Of a stretch of 32,663 nt of DNA, positions 4,156 to 32,521 are shown piece after piece (within the stretch, counting starts at the first letter, position 1; each line of letters starts with the position of its first letter). The notes under the pieces are model-generated. The model saw only the letters and a list, made by a program, of their open reading frames with translations, was not told where the DNA came from and ran no database searches. This stretch comes from Planctomycetota bacterium (GTDB lineage: Bacteria > Planctomycetota > Brocadiia > Brocadiales > Brocadiaceae): the NCBI GenBank assembly GCA_016873165.1, contig VGXV01000038.1, forward strand, positions 1 through 32,663, written 5' to 3'. The position numbers and the translations under genes were made by a program.

Positions 4156-4920
4156 CTATCTTAGAGTAACCTTGTTTATTTTTGAACGGAGCATATATAA
4201 GCCCTGATGGTGAAGTTGAGAAACCCGGGATTCTGAAATGTCTAATAACTGGCTGATTTCCTTTAACATCATACCTTCATAATAATAAAGACTTATTACC
4301 AATTTTTCACGCTTCGGCAATTCTTTAATTGCTTCAATCAACAATTCTTTTTCTTCTTCTGACTCCAGATTGCTCAAAGGATCACAAAACTTCGAATCTG
4401 CGAATTGCTTTCCCGCACTCTCTTTACCACCACTTTCCTCCGATTTTGCATTTATTTCTTCGAGGGAAAGAAACATGCCAAAATTAATCTCTGTCAATAA
4501 TTTTTCCCATTCGGCAGTGTCAATATTCAGTTCCGCCGCAACTTCTTCCGGGAGTGGAGGTCTGTTTAATTTTTGTTCCAGCGTGGCATATGTTTCTCTG
4601 GCCAATGAAACCTTATCACGAACAGAGCGCGGCAGCCAATCCTGTGCCCGTAAATAATCCAATATTGCCCCGCGGATTCTGGAAACAGCGAATGTCCCGA
4701 ACTTAGTATCCTTACAGGGATCAAACCTTTCCGACGCTTCCAGCAAGCCAATAACACCATATTCGACAAGATCATCTTTCTCGACAAAAGAAGGCAAATA
4801 AATGCTAAATTTATTTACTACATACTTTACCAATGAAAGATTTTCAGTAACCAATCTTTCTCTGTCCAGCATATCTTTATTCGTGTAATTTGACTTTTCC
4901 CTGTTTTTTTTAACCATCAT
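4156..4920 (-). CDS. fliA: Flagellar RNA polymerase sigma factor FliA (sigma-28)
   Basis: 254 residues, normal for FliA. Region 2 is clear (LVKYVVNKF, DDLVEYGVIGLLEASERFDP, FGTFAVSRIRGAILDYLR), as is the FliA/WhiG-specific AQDWLPRSVR; region 3 (LNRPPLPEEVAAELN) and the region 4 helix-turn-helix (LKEISQLLDISESRVSQLHHQGL) follow. It directs core polymerase to late flagellar and chemotaxis promoters and is normally held by the anti-sigma factor FlgM; no flgM was seen in the window. There are two adjacent ATG codons, and the first (4920) is used here. It is the last gene of the minus-strand flagellar array. A MITE is inserted immediately after its stop codon without altering the protein. Confidence 0.95.
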   Translation of the reverse strand: MMVKKNREKSNYTNKDMLDRERLVTENLSLVKYVVNKFSIYLPSFVEKDDLVEYGVIGLLEASERFDPCKDTKFGTFAVSRIRGAILDYLRAQDWLPRSVRDKVSLARETYATLEQKLNRPPLPEEVAAELNIDTAEWEKLLTEINFGMFLSLEEINAKSEESGGKESAGKQFADSKFCDPLSNLESEEEKELLIEAIKELPKREKLVISLYYYEGMMLKEISQLLDISESRVSQLHHQGLYMLRSKINKVTLR

Positions 4921-21641: not shown

Positions 21642-21944
21642 CTATGTTTGTTCTCGCATTACTTCTGTGTATGTTTTCACTAACTTATTACGGGCTTCCA
21701 TCATATACTTAAAACTAGCCTCAGCCTTTGACATGGCAACCATAACCTCGTGGATGTTTTCAACCTTTCCCGCTGACAAATTCTCTATGCTATCGTTGGT
21801 TTTCGTCTGCAACTCAGTAATTTCGTCTAAAAAGCCGCTTAAAACATCCTGGAATGAAGCTCCTTTATCTGATTGCCTTACGGAAGCGGAATCATTCTTA
21901 GGATTTTGAATTGTTTGATCTTTTCCAAGGGGTGATATGGTCAT
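21642..21944 (-). CDS. fliE: FliE, MS ring-rod junction protein (copy 1)
   Basis: 100 residues. The C-terminal three quarters is a typical FliE helical domain (SFQDVLSGFLDEITELQTK, SIENLSAGKVENIHEVMVAMSKAEASFKYMMEARNKLVKTYTEVMR). FliE connects the MS ring to the rod and is one of the first exported subunits. It is a clear paralogue of the gene at 22169-22468: about 53 of the last 75 residues are identical by hand count. Their N-termini differ. It is preceded by a weak Shine-Dalgarno (TGGGATTCC region), weaker than that of copy 2. The 224-nt gap between the two copies holds no gene. Confidence 0.92.
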   Translation of the reverse strand: MTISPLGKDQTIQNPKNDSASVRQSDKGASFQDVLSGFLDEITELQTKTNDSIENLSAGKVENIHEVMVAMSKAEASFKYMMEARNKLVKTYTEVMREQT

Positions 21945-22168: not shown

Positions 22169-22468
22169 TTACATTTGCATACGCATGACTTCTTTGTATG
22201 TTTCTACCAGTTTATTACGGGTTTCCATCATAAATTTAAAACTCACTTCTGCCTTTGACATAGCGACCATAACCTCGTGAATATTTTCAATCTTTCCACT
22301 TGAAAAATTTTCTATACTATCATTGGCTTTCACCTGGAGATCATTAATTTCGTTAATGAAGCCTCCTAAGGTATCTTTAAATGAAGTTCCTTGCTGCTCT
22401 TGGGCAAAATCAAAGACCTTATTTTGTTGAATTGAACCGTTGTTATTATTAATCGGTAAAACAGCCAT
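22169..22468 (-). CDS. fliE: FliE, MS ring-rod junction protein (copy 2, next to flgC)
   Basis: 99 residues. Sits at the canonical fliE place, 10 nt after the flgC stop, with AGGAG about 8 nt before the ATG at 22468, so it is likely the ancestral-position copy. The FliE helical region (SFKDTLGGFINEINDLQVKANDSIENFSSGKIENIHEVMVAMSKAEVSFKFMMETRNKLVETYKEVM) is complete. The frame extends to a TTG at 22489, but that overlaps flgC and the ribosome binding site. A loose TAACCGGC...GCCGGTTA inverted repeat overlaps the stop codon (about 22120-22172) and might reduce read-through to copy 1. Confidence 0.94.
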   Translation of the reverse strand: MAVLPINNNNGSIQQNKVFDFAQEQQGTSFKDTLGGFINEINDLQVKANDSIENFSSGKIENIHEVMVAMSKAEVSFKFMMETRNKLVETYKEVMRMQM

Positions 22469-22478
22469 AACTAAGCTC

Positions 22479-22922
22479 CTATCTTCCAATAATTGATAAT
22501 GCCTGATTCGTAATATCTTTAGAAGAATTTATCACTGCAAGATTTGCTTCGTAAGACCTGGATGCCGTAACAAGATCCACCATCTCCGTTGCAATATTTA
22601 CATTGGGCATTTCTACAAAGCCATTTTCATCCGCCTGAGGATGCCCCGGAACAAATACCTTATTAAAGGGCTCTTTGCTCTTCATAATTTTACTCACTTT
22701 CACACCGCCCAAACGCTCCATTCCCTCAAGATCATTCATGCCAGATGCTTCGTTAAGAACTGATTGAAATTCTACTTGTTCTCTTCGATAAGGCCCGCCA
22801 TCAGGAGATTTCGTCGCATTTGCATTCGCAATATTATTTGCGATCACATTCATACGGATGCGTTCTGCCGTAAGACCGGAGGCGCTTATATCTAATGCGG
22901 AAAATACATTATCCATTCCCAT
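22479..22922 (-). CDS. flgC: FlgC, proximal rod protein
   Basis: 147 residues, normal for FlgC. N-terminal rod motif (FSALDISASGLTAERIRMNVIANNIANANATKSPDGGPYRRE) and C-terminal rod motif (MPNVNIATEMVDLVTASRSYEANLAVINSSKDI) are complete. Exported through the FliPQR gate to form the rod with FlgB, FliE and others. It starts 11 nt after flgB stops. Confidence 0.97.
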   Translation of the reverse strand: MGMDNVFSALDISASGLTAERIRMNVIANNIANANATKSPDGGPYRREQVEFQSVLNEASGMNDLEGMERLGGVKVSKIMKSKEPFNKVFVPGHPQADENGFVEMPNVNIATEMVDLVTASRSYEANLAVINSSKDITNQALSIIGR

Positions 22923-23476: not shown

Positions 23477-24889
23477 TCACTCTATGTGGGAAAATACATC
23501 GCCTTCAACAGAATTTTTGTCCTCTATGTTGTATTTATTGAGTTTATTCCGCAATGTCCTCGTTGTAATTTTAAGCAATTCCGCGGCCTTTGTTTTATTC
23601 CCGCCTGTTTTTTCAAGGGTAGTAAAAATTAATTCTTTTTCCGCGTCTTCAATAGATTGCCCGTTATTCTTTATACTTACGGAATCGTTACCTATAGTAC
23701 GATGTTCAACTTTTCTTGTATCAAGAAGGGAGGTAAAACTGCTCAATTCAAGATCTTCCGATGATCCCATAACAACCGCTCTCTGAATAATATTTTTCAA
23801 TTCCCTCACGTTTCCCGGCCAATTGTACTGACAAAGATAATCCATGGCATCTTTTGCAATTGATTTGACACATGAATTGTTTTCCGAACTGTATTTTTTA
23901 AGATATGATTTGATCAGCAATGGGATATCTTCGCGTCTCTCCCGCAAGGGCGGCAAATGTATCGGAACAACATTCAAGCGATAAAACAGATCCTCACGAA
24001 ACGTTCCTTTTTGTATTTCTTTTGTCAGGTCCCTGTTTGTGGTTGCAACGATCCGGACATCAATTTTTATTGTTTTCTCTCCCCCTACCCTTTCAAACTC
24101 CTCTTCTTCCAAAACCCGCAACAGTTTTGCCTGGATATTAGGAGATATCTCGCTGATTTCATCAAGGAGCAACGTGCCTTCGTTTGCCAGTTCAAAACGT
24201 CCGACACGCTTTGCCACCGCCCCGGTATACGCCCCGCGTTCATGTCCGAAGAGTTCGCTTTCCAGGAGAGATTCCGCCAAAGCCGCGCAATTAACGCGAA
24301 TAAAAGGTTTGTCACAACGCGGACTGAAATAATGTATCGCACGCGCAACCAATTCTTTTCCCGTGCCGCTTTCACCCTGAATAAGAACACTTGCCTTACT
24401 CTGAGCTATTTTTTTCAGTTGTTCATATATTTGCGCCATTTTTGAGTTTTTGCCGTATACCGGTTCGGATTTTTCATCTGTGCCGGAAGCAGACCGCCAG
24501 TATTTATTTTCGGCAATTAATTTCTGCCGTTCATTCACCCGTGATATTAAAAGCTCTATCTGATCGGGAGAAAAAGGTTTTATAATATAATCGTATGCGC
24601 CTTTTCTCATGGCTTCTACCGCCGACTCTATCGTTCCGTATGCCGTCATAAGAATGACAACTGTTTCCTGGGAAATGCCCTTTACCTTTTCCAGCGCTTC
24701 CATGCCATCCATTCCGGGCATTTTCATATCCAGAAATATCAGGTCGAAATCTTCTTTGCTGATTCGCGAAATGGCTTGCTGTCCGTTGCCAACTCCGATT
24801 ACTTCATATCCTCCCCTCTTTAGCGTTTCACACAGGTATTCGCGCCCCAACGCATCATCATCAACCACCATTATCTTTTCAACACTCAT
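23477..24889 (-). CDS. NtrC-family sigma-54 activator, flagellar FlrC/FleR type
   Basis: 470 residues: REC domain (1-120, phosphoacceptor Asp54, acidic pair D10-D11, Lys104), AAA+ domain (about 145-385, Walker A GESGTGKE 172-179, the sigma-54 contact loop GAYTGA 219-224, Walker B LLLDEI), and a Fis-type helix-turn-helix (about 425-455, GGNKTKAAELLKITTRTLRNKL). Activators of this type open sigma-54 promoters on phosphorylation. The location immediately upstream of flgB and next to a soluble PAS kinase is that of FlrC/FleR, activators of middle flagellar genes. The GAYTGA loop has Tyr in place of the commoner Phe, a known natural variant. AGGGGAAT precedes the ATG at 24889. Confidence 0.93.
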   Translation of the reverse strand: MSVEKIMVVDDDALGREYLCETLKRGGYEVIGVGNGQQAISRISKEDFDLIFLDMKMPGMDGMEALEKVKGISQETVVILMTAYGTIESAVEAMRKGAYDYIIKPFSPDQIELLISRVNERQKLIAENKYWRSASGTDEKSEPVYGKNSKMAQIYEQLKKIAQSKASVLIQGESGTGKELVARAIHYFSPRCDKPFIRVNCAALAESLLESELFGHERGAYTGAVAKRVGRFELANEGTLLLDEISEISPNIQAKLLRVLEEEEFERVGGEKTIKIDVRIVATTNRDLTKEIQKGTFREDLFYRLNVVPIHLPPLRERREDIPLLIKSYLKKYSSENNSCVKSIAKDAMDYLCQYNWPGNVRELKNIIQRAVVMGSSEDLELSSFTSLLDTRKVEHRTIGNDSVSIKNNGQSIEDAEKELIFTTLEKTGGNKTKAAELLKITTRTLRNKLNKYNIEDKNSVEGDVFSHIE

Positions 24890-24949: not shown

Positions 24950-26272
24950 CTATGCATACTGAGTCACTAATGTCTCTTCTTCCGGAACGATAGTACTATA
25001 AGAATCCACATAGTGTTGTGAATTTCTGGGCAAATTAATATAGAACGTTGTTCCTTTTCCCTCTTCGCTTTCAACAAAGATTTTGCCGTTGTGCGCTTCA
25101 ATAATTTTATTTACTATTGCCAACCCAATCCCCGTTCCATCCTGTTTTGTCGTAAAAAAGAGATCAAATATCTTCCGCACCACTTCTTTTTTTATGCCAA
25201 CGCCCGTATCCTTTATCCCTATCTGAAAAACTTCGGTATCGTTTTCTCCCTCTATTGCACGCGTGAATACCGTTAAATGGCCTCCGCATGTCATCGATTG
25301 AATTGCATTTAAGCAAAGGTTCAAAAAGGCTTGTTGCAGTTTTTCAGAATCGCATTTCAGACAATCATCTTCTCCGTTGTATTCTTTGTGGATGTAAATA
25401 TTGTCGACTCCGTTCCGCTTCATATCTTCTTTAATAAAGAACAGTGTTTTGTCTAAAATTTCAGAGATACTGCTATTCCTTAAATGCAGCTTTACCGGAC
25501 GTGCAAATACCAGCAATTCTGTAACCGTTTTATTCAGATTTTTTGTGCCCTGTATTATATTTTTAACCAGTTTTTTACGAGGATCGGCATCATCAAAATC
25601 CCTTGCAAGCAATGCAGAAAATCCCTCAATTCCATTCAACGGATTACGAATTTCATGGGCAACACTTGCAGCCATCGCGCCAATAGCAGCAAGTTTGTCC
25701 GCTTTTCTCAGCCGTGTTTCCAAATCTCTTATCTTCGATAAATCTTTAAAAACCTCTACGGCCCCTATCGTATTATCCTGAGAATCCTTAATCAAAGATA
25801 CGCTGCTTTCCACCAGCCGCGTTAATCCATGACTCGTCTTTATTTCACGCTCAACACTAATAAAATTTTTCCCCTTTTTAAGCGCCTCTATAAGTAAAGA
25901 GGCGCCGCCATCTGCTTTTTCGTATAAACACTCTATTTTTTTCCCGATAACAGACGACCCGCTGATGTTTAATATTTCTTCCGCCGCTTTATTAAAAGTA
26001 GATATTTCTCCTTTTAAATTTATGGCAATAACACCACTATGAATACTTCCTAAAAGGCTGTTTAAATACTTCGTAAGGCTGCCCAATTCATGCACGTTAT
26101 CTTTTAAACGGGTATTCTTTTCTTCCATTTCCTTATCTATTTCTTTTACCTTGGTTTGCAACTGATTGTACGCTTCTTCCAAACGCAGCGTATAAAGGTT
26201 AAACTGTTCAAAAGCTGTTGCCAGTTCATTCCTGAACTTTTTTGGAAATTTATTCATAGCAATGTTTTTCAT
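24950..26272 (-). CDS. Soluble PAS-domain sensor histidine kinase, flagellar FlrB/FleS type
   Basis: 440 residues with no membrane segment: a coiled coil (about 25-65), a PAS domain (about 70-180), HisKA with phosphoacceptor His206 (SVAHEIRNPLNG), and HATPase with N-box NLCLNAIQSM, G1 DTGVGIK and G2 GTGIGLAIV. This cytoplasmic layout is that of FlrB/FleS, which sense progress of basal-body assembly and phosphorylate FlrC/FleR. It lies 60 nt upstream of the NtrC-type partner gene. A 22-residue tail follows the catalytic core. An in-frame ATG lies at residue 6; start uncertainty is small. Confidence 0.93.
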   Translation of the reverse strand: MKNIAMNKFPKKFRNELATAFEQFNLYTLRLEEAYNQLQTKVKEIDKEMEEKNTRLKDNVHELGSLTKYLNSLLGSIHSGVIAINLKGEISTFNKAAEEILNISGSSVIGKKIECLYEKADGGASLLIEALKKGKNFISVEREIKTSHGLTRLVESSVSLIKDSQDNTIGAVEVFKDLSKIRDLETRLRKADKLAAIGAMAASVAHEIRNPLNGIEGFSALLARDFDDADPRKKLVKNIIQGTKNLNKTVTELLVFARPVKLHLRNSSISEILDKTLFFIKEDMKRNGVDNIYIHKEYNGEDDCLKCDSEKLQQAFLNLCLNAIQSMTCGGHLTVFTRAIEGENDTEVFQIGIKDTGVGIKKEVVRKIFDLFFTTKQDGTGIGLAIVNKIIEAHNGKIFVESEEGKGTTFYINLPRNSQHYVDSYSTIVPEEETLVTQYA

Positions 26273-26301: not shown

Positions 26302-27273
26302 TTATTTATCTTCTCTATCAGATGGCATTAACAACTTATTATCCAACGTGTTTTTTTCCTGCCATTCCTTCCACCATGCAATATGATCAATATACCATTT
26401 CGCCTGAACAACTAACTCACTATCAGGATTTTTATCGATAAAACGCTGGAATCCATTCAGTGCATCATCATATTTTTTTAAATGCCAGTAACAATTTGCA
26501 ACCTGATATTGAATCCATATATACTGATAGGATGTAACGTTTTCTTGCGGAATATTTTTATAGCTCTGCAATGCCTTTTCATACTCTCCCAGTTTGTAAA
26601 AACATTCTGCTATTGTTATTGGATTTATCTCTTTTTCCAGGTCGGATAAATATTGGTGCAATCTATTGCTCATTCCCGGTTTTTCCTCGTTAGCCTCTTC
26701 AAAAACACCAATATCGTATTCGTCTTCTTTCTGTTCTTGTTCCGGGTTTTCATCTTTTTTTAAATCCCGAACCTTCTTTAAATTCTGTGATGGAAAATTT
26801 TCCAAAACTACGTTTGAGGAATCTCCAACTCCTGTCAGATCAGTGTTTTCTGATGAATTATTGTCCTCAGCAACCGATACAGAATCGATACTTTTCTCTG
26901 CACCCGGCTTAAAATACTTTCCGAGTCCGGACTCTGAAGCCGCTCCTTGCAATTTTAAATATTTCTTTTCCAATTCACGAAGCCGCTCTTTTTCTGCATG
27001 GAGATTTGATATTACATTCTCCATGTTCTGATGCTCTTTCCCGTCAGACGATGTCTTGTCAGAATCTGAATTTTTAGAAGATATGTCCGGCGTGTTGTTT
27101 TCCTCTAAAATAATGTCCTGATTCTCTCCTGTATCTGCACTTTTTCCGCTATTTACAGAATCACCGAACAATCTTTTTTCTGAATTTATAAGCATTGGAG
27201 CTCCCATCCATAGAACAATGAAAATCACCAAATGCCTTTTACCTATTTTTTTAAAAACATCCAGACAACACAT
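26302..27273 (-). CDS. Signal-anchored TPR protein, YbgF-like, upstream of the flagellar two-component genes
   Basis: 323 residues. An N-terminal basic-hydrophobic segment (about 13-32) is an uncleaved anchor or signal peptide. Residues 35-80 are Ser/Asp/Asn-rich and low in order; 85-105 form a short coiled coil. After a further disordered stretch, about residues 205-305 hold two to three TPR units (ITIAECFYKLGEYEKALQSYKNIP; YIWIQYQVANCYWHLKKYDDALNGFQRFIDKNPDSELV). The protein is probably periplasmic or membrane-bound, acting as a protein-protein scaffold; function unknown. GAGGTAACGGGAAAA precedes the ATG. The kinase gene starts 29 nt downstream, so the three genes may be cotranscribed. Confidence 0.75.
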   Translation of the reverse strand: MCCLDVFKKIGKRHLVIFIVLWMGAPMLINSEKRLFGDSVNSGKSADTGENQDIILEENNTPDISSKNSDSDKTSSDGKEHQNMENVISNLHAEKERLRELEKKYLKLQGAASESGLGKYFKPGAEKSIDSVSVAEDNNSSENTDLTGVGDSSNVVLENFPSQNLKKVRDLKKDENPEQEQKEDEYDIGVFEEANEEKPGMSNRLHQYLSDLEKEINPITIAECFYKLGEYEKALQSYKNIPQENVTSYQYIWIQYQVANCYWHLKKYDDALNGFQRFIDKNPDSELVVQAKWYIDHIAWWKEWQEKNTLDNKLLMPSDREDK

Positions 27274-27649: not shown

Positions 27650-29473
27650 TTATCCTAATTCTAAACGAAACGCTTTTATTGCTTGTTCCAGTTTTCCCAT
27701 CGACTTATAACATGCGCCGATTCTCTCAAATGCGAACGCCCGGATTTCTTTTTCAGCACTCTTTTCTAAAACATTGATATATGCCTTTACAGACTCTTCG
27801 TATTTTTTTTCATAAAAGAGGGAATCCGCAAGTCCTACCAGTCCATCTATTAATGATTTACTGTCAGGATATTTCTTTATAAAATCTTTAAAACTTTCAT
27901 ACGAACGCGTATAGTTATTACTCTCAAAATAACACCATCCTATCTCCAGAGACATTTTGTCCACATATTCATTATGCATTTTGGAATGTATCCCTTCCTG
28001 GAATGTTTTTATCGCAGAATCATAGAAATTCATTGCCCTCAAAGATTTTCCCTGCAAATACATACCGCGGGGAACCCAGTTGCTATTGGGATAGGTTTCT
28101 AACGCTCTCTTAAAAACCTGGAATGCTTCAACATAATATTTCTCATTATAAAAACATTCTCCCAGCAAGAAACTTGCATCTTCAATAAACTTTTCCTCTC
28201 CGCCATTCGCCAATAAATTCCCCAATACTGTCCTGGAGTCCTGATATTCCTTCAGCGAGAACAAACACTTTCCTATTAAATATTCAATTTCTGCCCCTAT
28301 CTGAATGGAATTGTACAGTTCCCTTGACATCATCAACGCCCTGATTGCCTCTCTGTATTCTTCCATTTTTGTAAGCGCTTTTGCAATGTTAAGCTGAACT
28401 CTTGCGGCAATCTCTCCCTCCGGATTTTCCTCTAAAACCTTTTCATAGGTTTCCTTTGCCTTCTTGTATAATCCCTGCATCATCAGACAATCGCCAATAC
28501 CGATAAAAGCCTCTGCAATTAATGGGTCTTTCGGATATCCATAAACAAACTGAAAATACGCCCGCATCGCGCTTTCAGGATCATTCAGCCGGTAATAACA
28601 ACTTCCTGTTTTGAATGCAGCATCCTTTGCAAACGGAGAAGTCATATATTTTTTTGCAACAATCTGATATTCCTGCAACGCGAGAAAATTAAAACCCAAA
28701 TCATAATAATAATTCCCCAGTTCGTAATACGCCTTGACGATCCTTTTGTCGTTGGGATATTTTATCTGCGCTCTTTGATAGATTTGAGCAGCTTTGTCCT
28801 TATAATATTCAGAAGCCGTATCAACATTAAGCTGTGATAAGGAGGTGACAAATATAGCATCTTCTTTCGGAATATATTCCAGGCTGCGCATGCCAAGAAT
28901 TGCCTCCAATATATCCTGTAGCGGACTTTTTTTAATCGATATGTTTATAAAAGATGATAAGTATTCAGGATCAACATTTTCATCCACAATAATACTCTTG
29001 CCGCAACTTGCTGACAATGCTTTTAATATTTCAGCCACCTGCACCTGTTTTGCGTTAATTGAAAAAACCGGCACGTCGTAGGGGTCCATTTCTTTTTTCA
29101 ATATAATATTTTCATTTGGTTGTATTACGACATTTTTTCTCTCTTTCTGTTCGGCAGCCTTTTTTTCAGATGATTTCTCTTTGGATTCCGTACCTTTCTT
29201 TTCTTCCAGTTCCTGATCTTTTAATATTTGCAGTTGCATCTGAAGCATTTCAAGATTTCTCAACTCTTTATCCAACTCCCCCTTTAAATCGCCTGATTCA
29301 CCCGTATTCTGTATCTGCGTCTGGATCATTTCATGGTTTTTGCTCTCATCGATGGCCACATTCTGTACATTATTTGAACTATCCCCGGCAGTATTGTTAC
29401 CGGCTCCGGCGAGAGCGTAAACCGGAAATACACCCAAAAGCATTGTTATTATAAAGATTAATCTCTTATTCAT
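27650..29473 (-). CDS. STN-domain plus multi-TPR secreted protein (unusual fusion)
   Basis: 607 residues from ATG 29473. Signal peptide (1-22, ending VYALAGA), a coiled coil rich in Glu/Lys/Gln (about 60-115), then an STN/secretin-N-like domain (about 136-212; VFSINAKQVQVAEILKALSASCGKSIIVDENV, INISIKKSPLQDILEAILGMRSLEYI). From about 220 to the end there are some ten TPR-like repeats with the -GNYYYDLGFNFLALQEYQ-, -GDCLMMQGLYKKAKETYEKVL- pattern. The STN domain is otherwise found at the N-terminus of secretins and TonB receptors; here no barrel follows. A periplasmic scaffold or outer-membrane assembly role is likely but unproved. ATG 29473 is preferred to a TTG at 29497 because it begins the signal peptide. 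fliF-like or secretin genes are not adjacent. Confidence 0.8.
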   Translation of the reverse strand: MNKRLIFIITMLLGVFPVYALAGAGNNTAGDSSNNVQNVAIDESKNHEMIQTQIQNTGESGDLKGELDKELRNLEMLQMQLQILKDQELEEKKGTESKEKSSEKKAAEQKERKNVVIQPNENIILKKEMDPYDVPVFSINAKQVQVAEILKALSASCGKSIIVDENVDPEYLSSFINISIKKSPLQDILEAILGMRSLEYIPKEDAIFVTSLSQLNVDTASEYYKDKAAQIYQRAQIKYPNDKRIVKAYYELGNYYYDLGFNFLALQEYQIVAKKYMTSPFAKDAAFKTGSCYYRLNDPESAMRAYFQFVYGYPKDPLIAEAFIGIGDCLMMQGLYKKAKETYEKVLEENPEGEIAARVQLNIAKALTKMEEYREAIRALMMSRELYNSIQIGAEIEYLIGKCLFSLKEYQDSRTVLGNLLANGGEEKFIEDASFLLGECFYNEKYYVEAFQVFKRALETYPNSNWVPRGMYLQGKSLRAMNFYDSAIKTFQEGIHSKMHNEYVDKMSLEIGWCYFESNNYTRSYESFKDFIKKYPDSKSLIDGLVGLADSLFYEKKYEESVKAYINVLEKSAEKEIRAFAFERIGACYKSMGKLEQAIKAFRLELG

Positions 29474-29508
29474 TTCCCACCATTCCACAAATAACAAACA
29501 AAATATTT

Positions 29509-30561
29509 CTACTTAACTTCCTTTTTCGTCTCCAAAGGGGCTTTTTTTTCTCCGGATACAGCGGTCATCGTTCCGATCGTGCGGGAAGCATTCTTCAGCC
29601 TCTTTGCTTCCTCCAGGTAATAATCTCCTATTTTAAAATAAGAATCCACAACGCACGACTTATCTTCTTCGGTCGCACAATTGCCCTCATGGGCAATAAC
29701 GGTATAAAGAGTTTTTCTTGCCTGCTGGTATTCCCCCAACTCTGCATAGCACTCGCCCATTTTTAATCTGCTTCTTAACTGATATTCACTGTTAAGATAG
29801 TCATTGTTTAAATGTCTGAATACTTCGAGAGCTGCCTTGTAATTACCCGAGTTAAAATAACAGTCGCCCAAACGATATACAATAAAATCCTCATTTAAAA
29901 ACGGCATCGATTTGTCTAATCCTTTTTCATAGAGTGAAGCGGCCGTCTTGTAATCTCCCTGCTCATACAACCGATTCGCTTCGATCACATATTCTGTCCT
30001 GTCTTCCTCCACATCTTCCGATTCCTGCATTGCATCCGAAGAAACATTTTCCCCCTTCGCGCTGCCTGACAATTTCTTTTTAGTTTTGCTGCCATTGACG
30101 CCGTCCTGTAATTTTTTGTTTGATTCCATGTATTTATCCAAAGATTCTTCAAGTTTCTTTTCCACAAGAGTCGAAACCATTTTATTGCCCTTTACCTTAA
30201 TCCAATCCTTCTGGAGGAATAAGAAGAAGCCTATTGCCCCCACTATTAATAAAATCACCATGACGGAAAGCACATACTGGTTAAGCATTATGCCTGCCAG
30301 TAATGATTTTTTTTGCTTTGCGGATTTTGATTTCGGCTCTTTTGATTTCTTTTCATCCGCCGGAACCTCATTCCCTTCGGAAGTTTCTGTCTGAGCCAGC
30401 ATATCTTCCATGCCGGGAGCTTTTGAATCCGGCACTTCCCGGGCGTCTTCCTCCGGAAGAATTGCTCCCTCAAGAGAATCCTTGCCGTCCTGACTTTGCA
30501 ACCCCTCAATTATTTCTTTTAACTCTGTTTCTTTTTTTTCGTTGGATGGCGTATCCGTCAT
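29509..30561 (-). CDS. Membrane-anchored TPR protein
   Basis: 350 residues. A long acidic, disordered cytoplasmic N-terminus (1-92, rich in Glu/Lys/Ser) precedes one membrane helix (95-116), then a second disordered charged stretch (120-190) and a TPR region (about 195-300; YEQGDYKTAASLYEKGL, GDCYFNSGNYKAALEVFRHL, GECYAELGEYQQARKTL). The TPR part should lie in the periplasm. No family assigned. It lies 35 nt upstream of the STN-TPR gene and 27 nt downstream of the STAS gene in the same direction, so an operon with both is likely. Function unknown; perhaps a partner of the TPR scaffold protein. Confidence 0.75.
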   Translation of the reverse strand: MTDTPSNEKKETELKEIIEGLQSQDGKDSLEGAILPEEDAREVPDSKAPGMEDMLAQTETSEGNEVPADEKKSKEPKSKSAKQKKSLLAGIMLNQYVLSVMVILLIVGAIGFFLFLQKDWIKVKGNKMVSTLVEKKLEESLDKYMESNKKLQDGVNGSKTKKKLSGSAKGENVSSDAMQESEDVEEDRTEYVIEANRLYEQGDYKTAASLYEKGLDKSMPFLNEDFIVYRLGDCYFNSGNYKAALEVFRHLNNDYLNSEYQLRSRLKMGECYAELGEYQQARKTLYTVIAHEGNCATEEDKSCVVDSYFKIGDYYLEEAKRLKNASRTIGTMTAVSGEKKAPLETKKEVK

Positions 30562-30588: not shown

Positions 30589-30975
30589 TTAAGATACATC
30601 TTCTCTGGACCATAAAAATGTTTTTTCCAGTTTCCCGACACGGGGGCCCATACTTGATATCGCTTCATTTTCGTTCTCAAATACTTCCACAATCCGAAGC
30701 AAGCCGGTGAGATCCATCAGCTTTTTGATATTCGTATTTATTTGAATTAATTTAAATCCTCTTTGTTTCTCTCTGAAACAACTTGCATAATATGCTATTA
30801 TTCCCAATGCATTTGCAGAAATATATTTTACATATCTGAAATTCAGTATAATATTACACGTGTCTTCATATACCGATTTGAGTATGTCTTCCAATTCGAT
30901 TGCCCCATTATACACAAGGTTCCCTTTGGGTGATAACACGACCACATTGTCTTTTTTCTGTTTTTCAATTTCCAT
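30589..30975 (-). CDS. STAS-domain anti-sigma-factor antagonist-like protein (HsbA-like) with altered phosphosite
   Basis: 128 residues, one STAS domain (about 1-110; VVVLSPKGNLVYNGAIELEDIL, IILNFRYVKYISANALGIIAYY). STAS proteins of the SpoIIAA/RsbV/HsbA type bind an HATPase kinase and are released or re-bound by Ser phosphorylation. Aligned by eye to the canonical phosphosite block (aromatic-M/I-D-S-S-G/A-L-G), this protein reads YISANALG: the phosphorylated Ser corresponds to Ala54, with Ser53 one place earlier and Asn55 after. So it may not be phosphorylated at the normal site. Its start overlaps the end of the REC-PP2C-HATPase gene by 11 nt, which marks that protein as its partner. C-terminal LEKTFLWSREDVS tail beyond the domain. 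Confidence 0.82.
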   Translation of the reverse strand: MEIEKQKKDNVVVLSPKGNLVYNGAIELEDILKSVYEDTCNIILNFRYVKYISANALGIIAYYASCFREKQRGFKLIQINTNIKKLMDLTGLLRIVEVFENENEAISSMGPRVGKLEKTFLWSREDVS

Positions 30976-32497
30976 TAAAACTCACCCGTTTTGCCAAAAA
31001 AACCGAAGTCCCTCCCCCCGTATGGGATTGTATCATCACCCGGTCCATCAGATGTTTCATAATAAAAATACCTCTGCCGTCTTTTTTTGTTATGCCTTTA
31101 TATAATGTCGTATCAGGTTCTTCACAATTCCGGGGATCAAATCCGCAGCCCCGGTCGCTTATTTCTATGATGATATCTTCACCTAACCTTGAAAATCTTA
31201 AAACAACCTTTCCCTTCTCCTCTCCTTTGTATGCAAATAATAATGCATTTAGCGTAGCTTCATTAACGGAGGTAATAATTTCATACCGCTTGCACTCGTC
31301 TTTTACGGTCTTTGACAATTTTTCTTCGAACAAATTTACTATCTCATCGTAATTATTAACCGGCAGGGAAATACTCATTTCTTCTTTCCATGATGGGTAT
31401 CCTCTGTTTCTGAGGTTAAGAACCATGACAGCCCCGTTTCGTTCATAAGCAGCTAACTCATACAATCCTTCTATCTCGTGTTTCATTTTTTTCGCTACCG
31501 TCTCACAACTCCCGGCAACATCTTTCTCAAGTATATCTTTCAACCTGTCTTTCTGAATAATTCCCTTCCGAAATCCCTTCGCTACAGCGCCGTTATCAAT
31601 TACAATAAACCTGTTGCCTTCCCTCATGGACAAAGTATGTTCAGGCACATCCATATCAGGAAACATATTTAAGCAGGGTGGATACGATTGGAGGCATATC
31701 GTCTCGTTATCCTGTGATGTTATAAAACACGTAATATCTTCCCCGCATACCGAATACGAAAACTTTTGCTCATTCTTATCTGAAATTACACAGAAAAGCA
31801 TGAGAGGAAAACGTTTTTTTACATTTTCACACAGAAAGTTATTTATCTTTTTTACCAGTAATGAAGAGGATATGCATGTTTTTGCCTCATAGCGAAAAAT
31901 AGTTTTTATTACAATGTCCAGATTTTTTCCCCCTGCCTCACGCGGAAAACTCCCAAACAACGCCACATTCCTTTCGCCGGTCTCAACAATGTCATAAAAA
32001 ACACGTTTCGACGTTTCAGTTTCGTCCTCTGCAACATACCATGATTCAGTCTGTTTACCCTGTAATTCTTCACACAGCCATACATCCTCTTTCCCGCTCT
32101 TTTTTTCACTGTCTGCATTGATATCAGAGACATTGCGTTCATTCAGTACCTTACGAATTACTTTCTTAATATGATCGAGTTTAAAAGGCTTTGTTATAAA
32201 ATCAGAAACGCCTGTGTGCATTGCCTCTATAACCGCCTCTGTCGAACCATACCCTGTCATAATAACCGCTTTTGTGGCAGGACTGACTTTCTTTATCTCG
32301 GCAATCAACTGTACACCGTTCATGATTGGCATAGTTAAATCACTAATCACCAGATCATATTTTATTTTCTTTGCCAATTTCAGAGCTTCAACGCTATCAT
32401 TGGTATCTTCCACGTCATAACCATCATCCAAAAGTGTATCCTTCAAAGCCCATCTTAGCGTTTCCTCATCATCTACCAATAAAATCTTTTTCTTCAT
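30965..32497 (-). CDS. REC - degenerate PP2C - HATPase regulator (HsbR-like partner-switching protein)
   Basis: 510 residues from ATG 32497 (MKKKILLVDDEE); an upstream in-frame ATG at 32521 has no better ribosome site. REC domain (1-125, phosphoacceptor Asp53, Lys near 102). A SpoIIE/PP2C-like domain (about 160-360) lacks its metal-binding Asp residues: GDFYD reads RVFYD, GDVSGHG reads GSFPREA, TDG reads DNG shifted, and the final DD reads RN. The C-terminal HATPase (about 385-500) is intact: NEATLNA N-box, DRGCGFDP G1, DGRGIFIMKHLMD G2. The domain order is that of Pseudomonas HsbR, which with STAS protein HsbA controls FlgM or HsbD and motility. Here the phosphatase is probably dead. It overlaps the STAS gene by 11 nt. 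Confidence 0.85.
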   Translation of the reverse strand: MKKKILLVDDEETLRWALKDTLLDDGYDVEDTNDSVEALKLAKKIKYDLVISDLTMPIMNGVQLIAEIKKVSPATKAVIMTGYGSTEAVIEAMHTGVSDFITKPFKLDHIKKVIRKVLNERNVSDINADSEKKSGKEDVWLCEELQGKQTESWYVAEDETETSKRVFYDIVETGERNVALFGSFPREAGGKNLDIVIKTIFRYEAKTCISSSLLVKKINNFLCENVKKRFPLMLFCVISDKNEQKFSYSVCGEDITCFITSQDNETICLQSYPPCLNMFPDMDVPEHTLSMREGNRFIVIDNGAVAKGFRKGIIQKDRLKDILEKDVAGSCETVAKKMKHEIEGLYELAAYERNGAVMVLNLRNRGYPSWKEEMSISLPVNNYDEIVNLFEEKLSKTVKDECKRYEIITSVNEATLNALLFAYKGEEKGKVVLRFSRLGEDIIIEISDRGCGFDPRNCEEPDTTLYKGITKKDGRGIFIMKHLMDRVMIQSHTGGGTSVFLAKRVSFNGN

Positions 32498-32521
32498 ATT
32501 TTCATTACTGTGTAATACCAT

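Follow-up and report, generated by a model that had tools for sequence, protein, structure and literature searches.

The locus described here raises the question of how a partner switch could operate when both its phosphatase and the serine on which that phosphatase would act appear to be lost. The window analysed (the whole stretch of 32,663 nucleotides, from a planctomycete of the Brocadiaceae) holds a flagellar gene cluster on its minus strand, with a regulator gene and a STAS gene at the upstream end of the cluster. The regulator gene (30965..32497, minus strand) encodes 510 residues from the ATG at 32497, or 518 residues from an upstream ATG at 32521, and overlaps the STAS gene (30589..30975, minus strand; 128 residues) by 11 bp (30965-30975). 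Both open reading frames lie where a preliminary description of this DNA had placed them. Three domains were identified in the regulator, i.e. a REC domain (residues 1-118; 32144..32497), a PP2C domain of the SpoIIE fold (residues 157-362; 31412..32029) and a HATPase domain of the SpoIIAB/RsbW type (residues 382-504; 30986..31354), all on the minus strand. The Pfam matches are all above cut-off (REC, E=4e-27; SpoIIE, 5.9e-10; HATPase_c_2, 1.5e-16), the SpoIIE match beginning only at profile position 25, and the same holds for the STAS gene product (Pfam STAS, 4.9e-12). The genome is that of a Candidatus Kuenenia (order Brocadiales); the closest named record over the PP2C-HATPase part is from Ca. 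Kuenenia hertensis (71%).

The metal ligands of SpoIIE include D628, D746 and D795 (PMC5468089). Aligning the HMM of 24 orthologous PP2C domains to that of 16 intact PP2Cs of the SpoIIE type (99% probability, E 5e-18, 222 columns) places Val166 (32000..32002) on the first metal-binding Asp, that of GGD, Ser183 (31949..31951) on the Asp of DVSGHG, equivalent to SpoIIE D628, Asn302 (31592..31594) on the Asp of TDG, and Arg353-Asn354 (31436..31441) on the terminal DD, with Arg353 at the fourth metal position (all minus strand). The replacement of all four Asp residues, read earlier from a hand alignment, is thereby confirmed in all but one detail: the DNG that was taken for a shifted TDG is in register with it, with Asn on the metal-binding Asp. 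Asp is found at the first two sites in none of the 24 orthologues, which come from three families, and at the third site in two of them; a DD at the fourth site is present only in five of the seven Scalindua-type sequences. No intact orthologue of the regulator was found among 62 Brocadiales genomes, 18 of which encode the full-length protein. Sequencing error could be ruled out as the cause of the lost motifs, as independent assemblies show the same losses. As judged from these alignments, the PP2C domain is a dead phosphatase that has kept its fold and lost its metal site.

The AlphaFold2 model of the regulator retains the PP2C secondary structure; the multi-domain model has a pTM of 0.46 with low between-domain confidence, and does not fix the arrangement of the domains. 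Beyond lone REC domains, the best Foldseek matches are RssB (E 6e-19), the RsbU-RsbW part of Rv1364c, SpoIIE and RsbX. Matches in a structural alignment of the full model are filled by REC domains and say little on the PP2C part, and a sequence-profile search of the PDB with that part gave no PP2C structure at E<0.1. Conservation within the PP2C domain is highest (0.68) in a stretch with two helices after motif 2; motifs 1-2 reach 0.57, and motif 3 reaches 0.54. By position, these two helices match those reported as switch helices in SpoIIE and RssB (PMC5468089, PMC12143880).

The predicted structure of the STAS protein has the STAS fold, as its match to 1thn_B shows (Z 18.6, rmsd 1.7, 111 residues). 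HMM alignment of its family with SpoIIAA (1tid, 1th8, 1auz) places Ala54 on the phosphorylated Ser58 and Ser53 on Asp57 (Ser53-Ala54, 30814..30819, minus strand), leaving no phosphorylatable Ser or Thr at the Ser58 position, and both residues are invariant in all 18 readable STAS orthologues. The canonical STAS serine can thus, by alignment, be neither written nor erased here. The same position is occupied by Ala in chain B of PDB 1tid (Bacillus SpoIIAA), and the Brocadiales STAS can be regarded as a naturally occurring equivalent of the non-phosphorylatable SpoIIAA from crystal structures. The paired loss of eraser and substrate serine, including the Ala at the phosphosite, had been suggested in the preliminary description, and profile alignments and the orthologue survey uphold it. 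As contrary findings it had named beforehand two or more Asp residues in the metal sites, Ser53 exactly on the Ser58 position, or orthologues with intact motifs; the four sites hold no Asp, Ser53 falls off Ser58, and intact orthologues did not turn up in the genomes surveyed.

The C-terminal tail of the STAS protein (residues 111-122, GPxVGKLEKxxLW; 30610..30645, minus strand) lies outside the STAS fold, is predicted to be disordered, and is better conserved than the STAS body (0.80 vs 0.69). With a level of conservation that few other parts of the protein reach, the tail looks like a putative peptide for binding a partner. In one genome (G031) the STAS frame breaks after 77 residues (L031:6107-6340) next to an intact regulator gene, through either an assembly error or a real loss.

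STAS orthologues were found in the genome of the window, in 17 other Brocadiaceae genomes and in one genome of a second family; the full-length regulator is present in 18 of these STAS-bearing genomes, including that of the window, and a third family holds the REC-PP2C part alone. From this survey, the losses are general across the order Brocadiales and not an artefact. They all trace to one ancestor, so the orthologues do not represent independent events. The genome of the window has one STAS domain, one HATPase_c_2 domain above cut-off and, besides the regulator gene, a single SpoIIE gene. That SpoIIE gene, on contig C10, was considered as a source of a trans-acting eraser and rejected, since it lacks the first motif and neither sister species (G001, G002) has it. 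It (L051:1492-2184) encodes a few REC residues joined to the PP2C domain beyond the first motif, an arrangement that an internal deletion might have produced. In ten pair-bearing genomes (G001, G002, G004, G010, G011, G013, G024, G028, G029 and G031) the pseudo-PP2C is the sole SpoIIE match, and therefore no trans-acting eraser of the SpoIIE type is visible in them. In the openly accessible literature that was covered, partner switching is nowhere described for anammox bacteria, nor is a STAS family without the serine.

In Scalindua-type genomes (family f4) the same position is occupied by a REC-pseudoPP2C gene only, without HATPase domain and without STAS gene. The Scalindua-type group is split from the full form in the gene tree with good support, and the f3 sequence is placed beside Brocadiaceae with weak support. 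Because these genomes keep the core alone, the core appears to have a role for which neither ATPase nor STAS is needed, and a separate binding partner probably exists for it. Together with RssB as the best structural match, this core-only form makes a degenerate PP2C that senses or scaffolds, offered at first as an alternative, the best-supported option. Between NtrC1 and the REC-pseudoPP2C gene, Scalindua-type genomes carry a small HisKA protein without ATPase domain (L121:13420-13917; also L069, L070 and L071), as though a kinase dimerisation domain had been turned into a phosphotransfer protein.

Downstream of the STAS gene are three syntenic TPR proteins: TPRa (29509..30561), which comes directly after it and has a hydrophobic, membrane-segment-like stretch, TPRb (27650..29497), part of which weakly resembles GspD N0 (E 0.005, under the cut-off), and TPRc (26302..27273). 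They are followed by a PAS-HisKA-HATPase histidine kinase (24950..26272), a candidate phosphodonor, and an NtrC-type sigma-54 activator (23477..24889), and then by flgB, flgC, fliE, fliF and further genes; a FliA/WhiG sigma factor (4156..4920) is a candidate indirect target (all minus strand). The place of TPRb beside the switch is conserved across families, and the window contains two tandem FliE-like genes (21642-21944 and 22169-22489). The recurrent order across families is flgM, a small protein, a TPR protein, NtrC1, regulator, STAS, three TPR genes, histidine kinase, NtrC2, flgB, flgC and fliE.

In many relatives flgM is located 3-6 kb upstream of the pair on the same strand; in Kuenenia it is not adjacent to the pair, and in the genome of the window flgM and NtrC1 are on other contigs. 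An 88% identical NtrC1 stands at the end of contig C2 of this genome, so the regulator gene may be separated from NtrC1 by the contig break. Among 33 Brocadiaceae genomes, 17 have both the pair and FlhA, one has the pair only, two have FlhA only and 13 have neither (Fisher p=2e-6, the kinship of the genomes being ignored). The flagellar link drawn earlier from gene placement is strengthened by these data, and FliA/FlgM, then named as the target, is plausible by inference. FlgM was found in most flagellated genomes, ruling out the HATPase domain as a stand-in for a missing FlgM. In the closed Kuenenia genome G001 (C1:615181-620040), several stops interrupt the reading frames of FliA and FlhA, and regulator and STAS are intact.

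The residues expected to be needed for signal input and ATP binding have been kept. REC residues D9, D10, D53 and K103 are invariant in 17 orthologues and T81 is nearly so. The N box (E413, N417), G1 box (D448-x-G450-x-G452) and G2 box (G474-R-G476) of the HATPase domain, described as intact from the start, are likewise invariant in 17 orthologues and align with SpoIIAB. Compared with two Kuenenia relatives, the dN/dS values of REC, PP2C, HATPase and STAS are 0.03-0.05, 0.19-0.21, 0.09-0.12 and about 0.12, respectively, these ratios being approximate as they come from a simple two-species method with dS near or above 1. Such values, also those of about 0.2 for PP2C and 0.12 for STAS, argue against decay and show that all parts of the regulator and the STAS protein are under purifying selection.

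The arrangement resembles that of HsbR/HsbA in the HptB pathway of Pseudomonas aeruginosa, in which phosphorylated HsbR dephosphorylates HsbA, and HsbA then binds FlgM, freeing FliA (PMC5085249). The likeness proposed at the outset holds for the REC-PP2C-HATPase architecture, the adjacent STAS gene and the flagellar location with flgM nearby (PMC5085249). It does not extend to the chemistry, as HsbR needs its phosphatase activity and HsbA its Ser56, and the Brocadiales pair has neither; nor does it extend to the adjacent genes, since Brocadiaceae lack a neighbouring hptB-type gene and have NtrC1, STAS and TPR genes around the regulator. By its defining chemistry, as deduced from the alignments, the pair is not a member of HsbR/HsbA, although by analogy it may work by binding, as HsbR/HsbA does.

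We propose, at about even confidence, that the pair is a flagellum-linked partner switch without serine phosphorylation, with a dead PP2C that acts as a scaffold for binding and is moved when REC is phosphorylated. A histidine kinase, for which the PAS kinase at 24950-26272 is the best candidate, would phosphorylate REC, and this would shift the linker and the switch helices of the PP2C domain. The latter would serve as allosteric and binding scaffold, as in RssB, and its state, possibly with the nucleotide state of the ATPase, would decide whether STAS is held or released by the HATPase domain. Released STAS might then target FlgM, a link that is plausible from the neighbourhood and by analogy with HsbA. 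Within this scheme, the loss of the metal site and of the phosphoserine, the selection on all parts and the flagellar linkage are the steps established by sequence comparison.

A rather unlikely alternative is that the HATPase domain is itself a direct anti-sigma factor for a FliA-type sigma factor, with the non-phosphorylatable STAS as its stoichiometric antagonist under REC control. The HATPase domain is most similar to SpoIIAB, and FliA, a member of the sigma group bound by SpoIIAB-type proteins, is encoded in the same cluster; SpoIIAB binds related group-3 sigma factors. However, the presence of FlgM in most flagellated genomes implies that FliA already has its own anti-sigma factor, and Scalindua-type genomes have FliA, yet a regulator without HATPase domain.

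It is also quite unlikely that the HATPase domain still acts as a serine kinase on a displaced STAS residue (Ser53 or one in the tail), to be cleared by an unrelated phosphatase or by turnover. Every box that a kinase needs has been kept invariant, including the N-box Glu, so the domain may still phosphorylate something, and Ser53 is invariant too. Ser53, which had been suggested as a phosphosite in a shifted register, nevertheless aligns with SpoIIAA Asp57 and could be ruled out as the Ser58 equivalent; it stands directly before a predicted helix (residues 54-69). In canonical STAS proteins from this order the block is YISSAGL, YISSSGL or YLDSEAL, where Ser or Asp precedes the true phosphoserine, so that Ser53 is the usual residue before the phosphosite and not a moved phosphosite, its invariance being explained structurally. 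In addition, a second SpoIIE phosphatase was not found in many of these genomes.

It is very improbable that the module is what remains of an HsbR/HsbA switch in decay: the broken STAS frame in G031, the absence of HATPase and STAS from Scalindua-type genomes and the broken FlhA and FliA frames in G001 would fit it, but 17 regulator frames are open, dN/dS is far below 1 for every domain, the REC and ATP-binding residues are invariant, and gene order is conserved. We give hardly any weight to a PP2C domain that is still a phosphatase via a rebuilt metal site, as D169 (of FYD), albeit invariant, is the second Asp of GGDxYD and not a metal ligand, and sites 1 and 2 lack Asp in 24 of 24 sequences and site 3 has it in only two, even if the terminal DD is kept in five of seven Scalindua-type orthologues.

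The preferred reading, which makes the dead PP2C a scaffold for binding that REC controls, has its known precedent in RssB of Escherichia coli. In this response regulator the PP2C fold has been left without an active site and works as an adaptor for binding (PMC7226468, PMC12143880). RssB (of E. coli, and of P. aeruginosa RssB/RssC) shares with the regulator a PP2C-fold effector without active-site residues, and its two-domain layout is the same as that of the Scalindua-type form. In contrast, the Brocadiaceae form adds an ATPase domain and a STAS gene, and its PP2C is not C-terminally truncated. The linker of RssB is a structured, segmented helical one; the model of the regulator gives residues 121-149 a pLDDT <50, and the linker there may be disordered. 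The likeness to RssB, a protein that binds sigma-S and ClpX, is one of sequence and predicted fold; the NCBIfam RssB models score 71 of 700 and 62.5 of 329 bits against the regulator, below their cut-offs and in the REC region only.

The possibility that PP2C regulators go through noncatalytic stages in which the allosteric switch is preserved has been put forward (PMC5468089); the pair fits this proposal and may show a stage toward an RssB-type adaptor. More tentatively, and at somewhat less than even likelihood, the whole order may run a partner switch without serine phosphorylation, with the PP2C as scaffold under REC, an always unphosphorylated STAS acting via its tail, and a sister lineage reduced to an RssB-like adaptor. 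If so, an RssB-type adaptor would have arisen separately from the gammaproteobacterial one, with a living intermediate that still bears ATPase and STAS. The textbook view of a partner switch is that of a serine kinase-phosphatase system, and the order-wide version would have dropped both the phosphatase chemistry and the substrate serine. As the folds and the ATP site are all kept, the purpose of the ATPase domain becomes a directly testable question.

The SpoIIAA/SpoIIAB/SpoIIE and RsbV/RsbW/RsbU switches of Bacillus have the STAS and ATPase folds and the ATP-binding boxes in common with the pair. Unlike them, the pair has no working phosphatase and no phosphorylatable serine, and puts the three functions on two proteins under a receiver domain. 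The RsbU-RsbW fusion Rv1364c of Mycobacterium tuberculosis, a strong structural match, also carries PP2C and HATPase in one chain; it is catalytically competent and, unlike the regulator, has no REC domain. SypE of Vibrio fischeri combines REC, kinase and phosphatase domains, and, as proposed for the pair, one regulator acts on a small STAS protein, SypA. There, however, Ser56 of SypA is the control point, the S56A variant being constitutively active (PMC10120452), and the domain order of the regulator is different.
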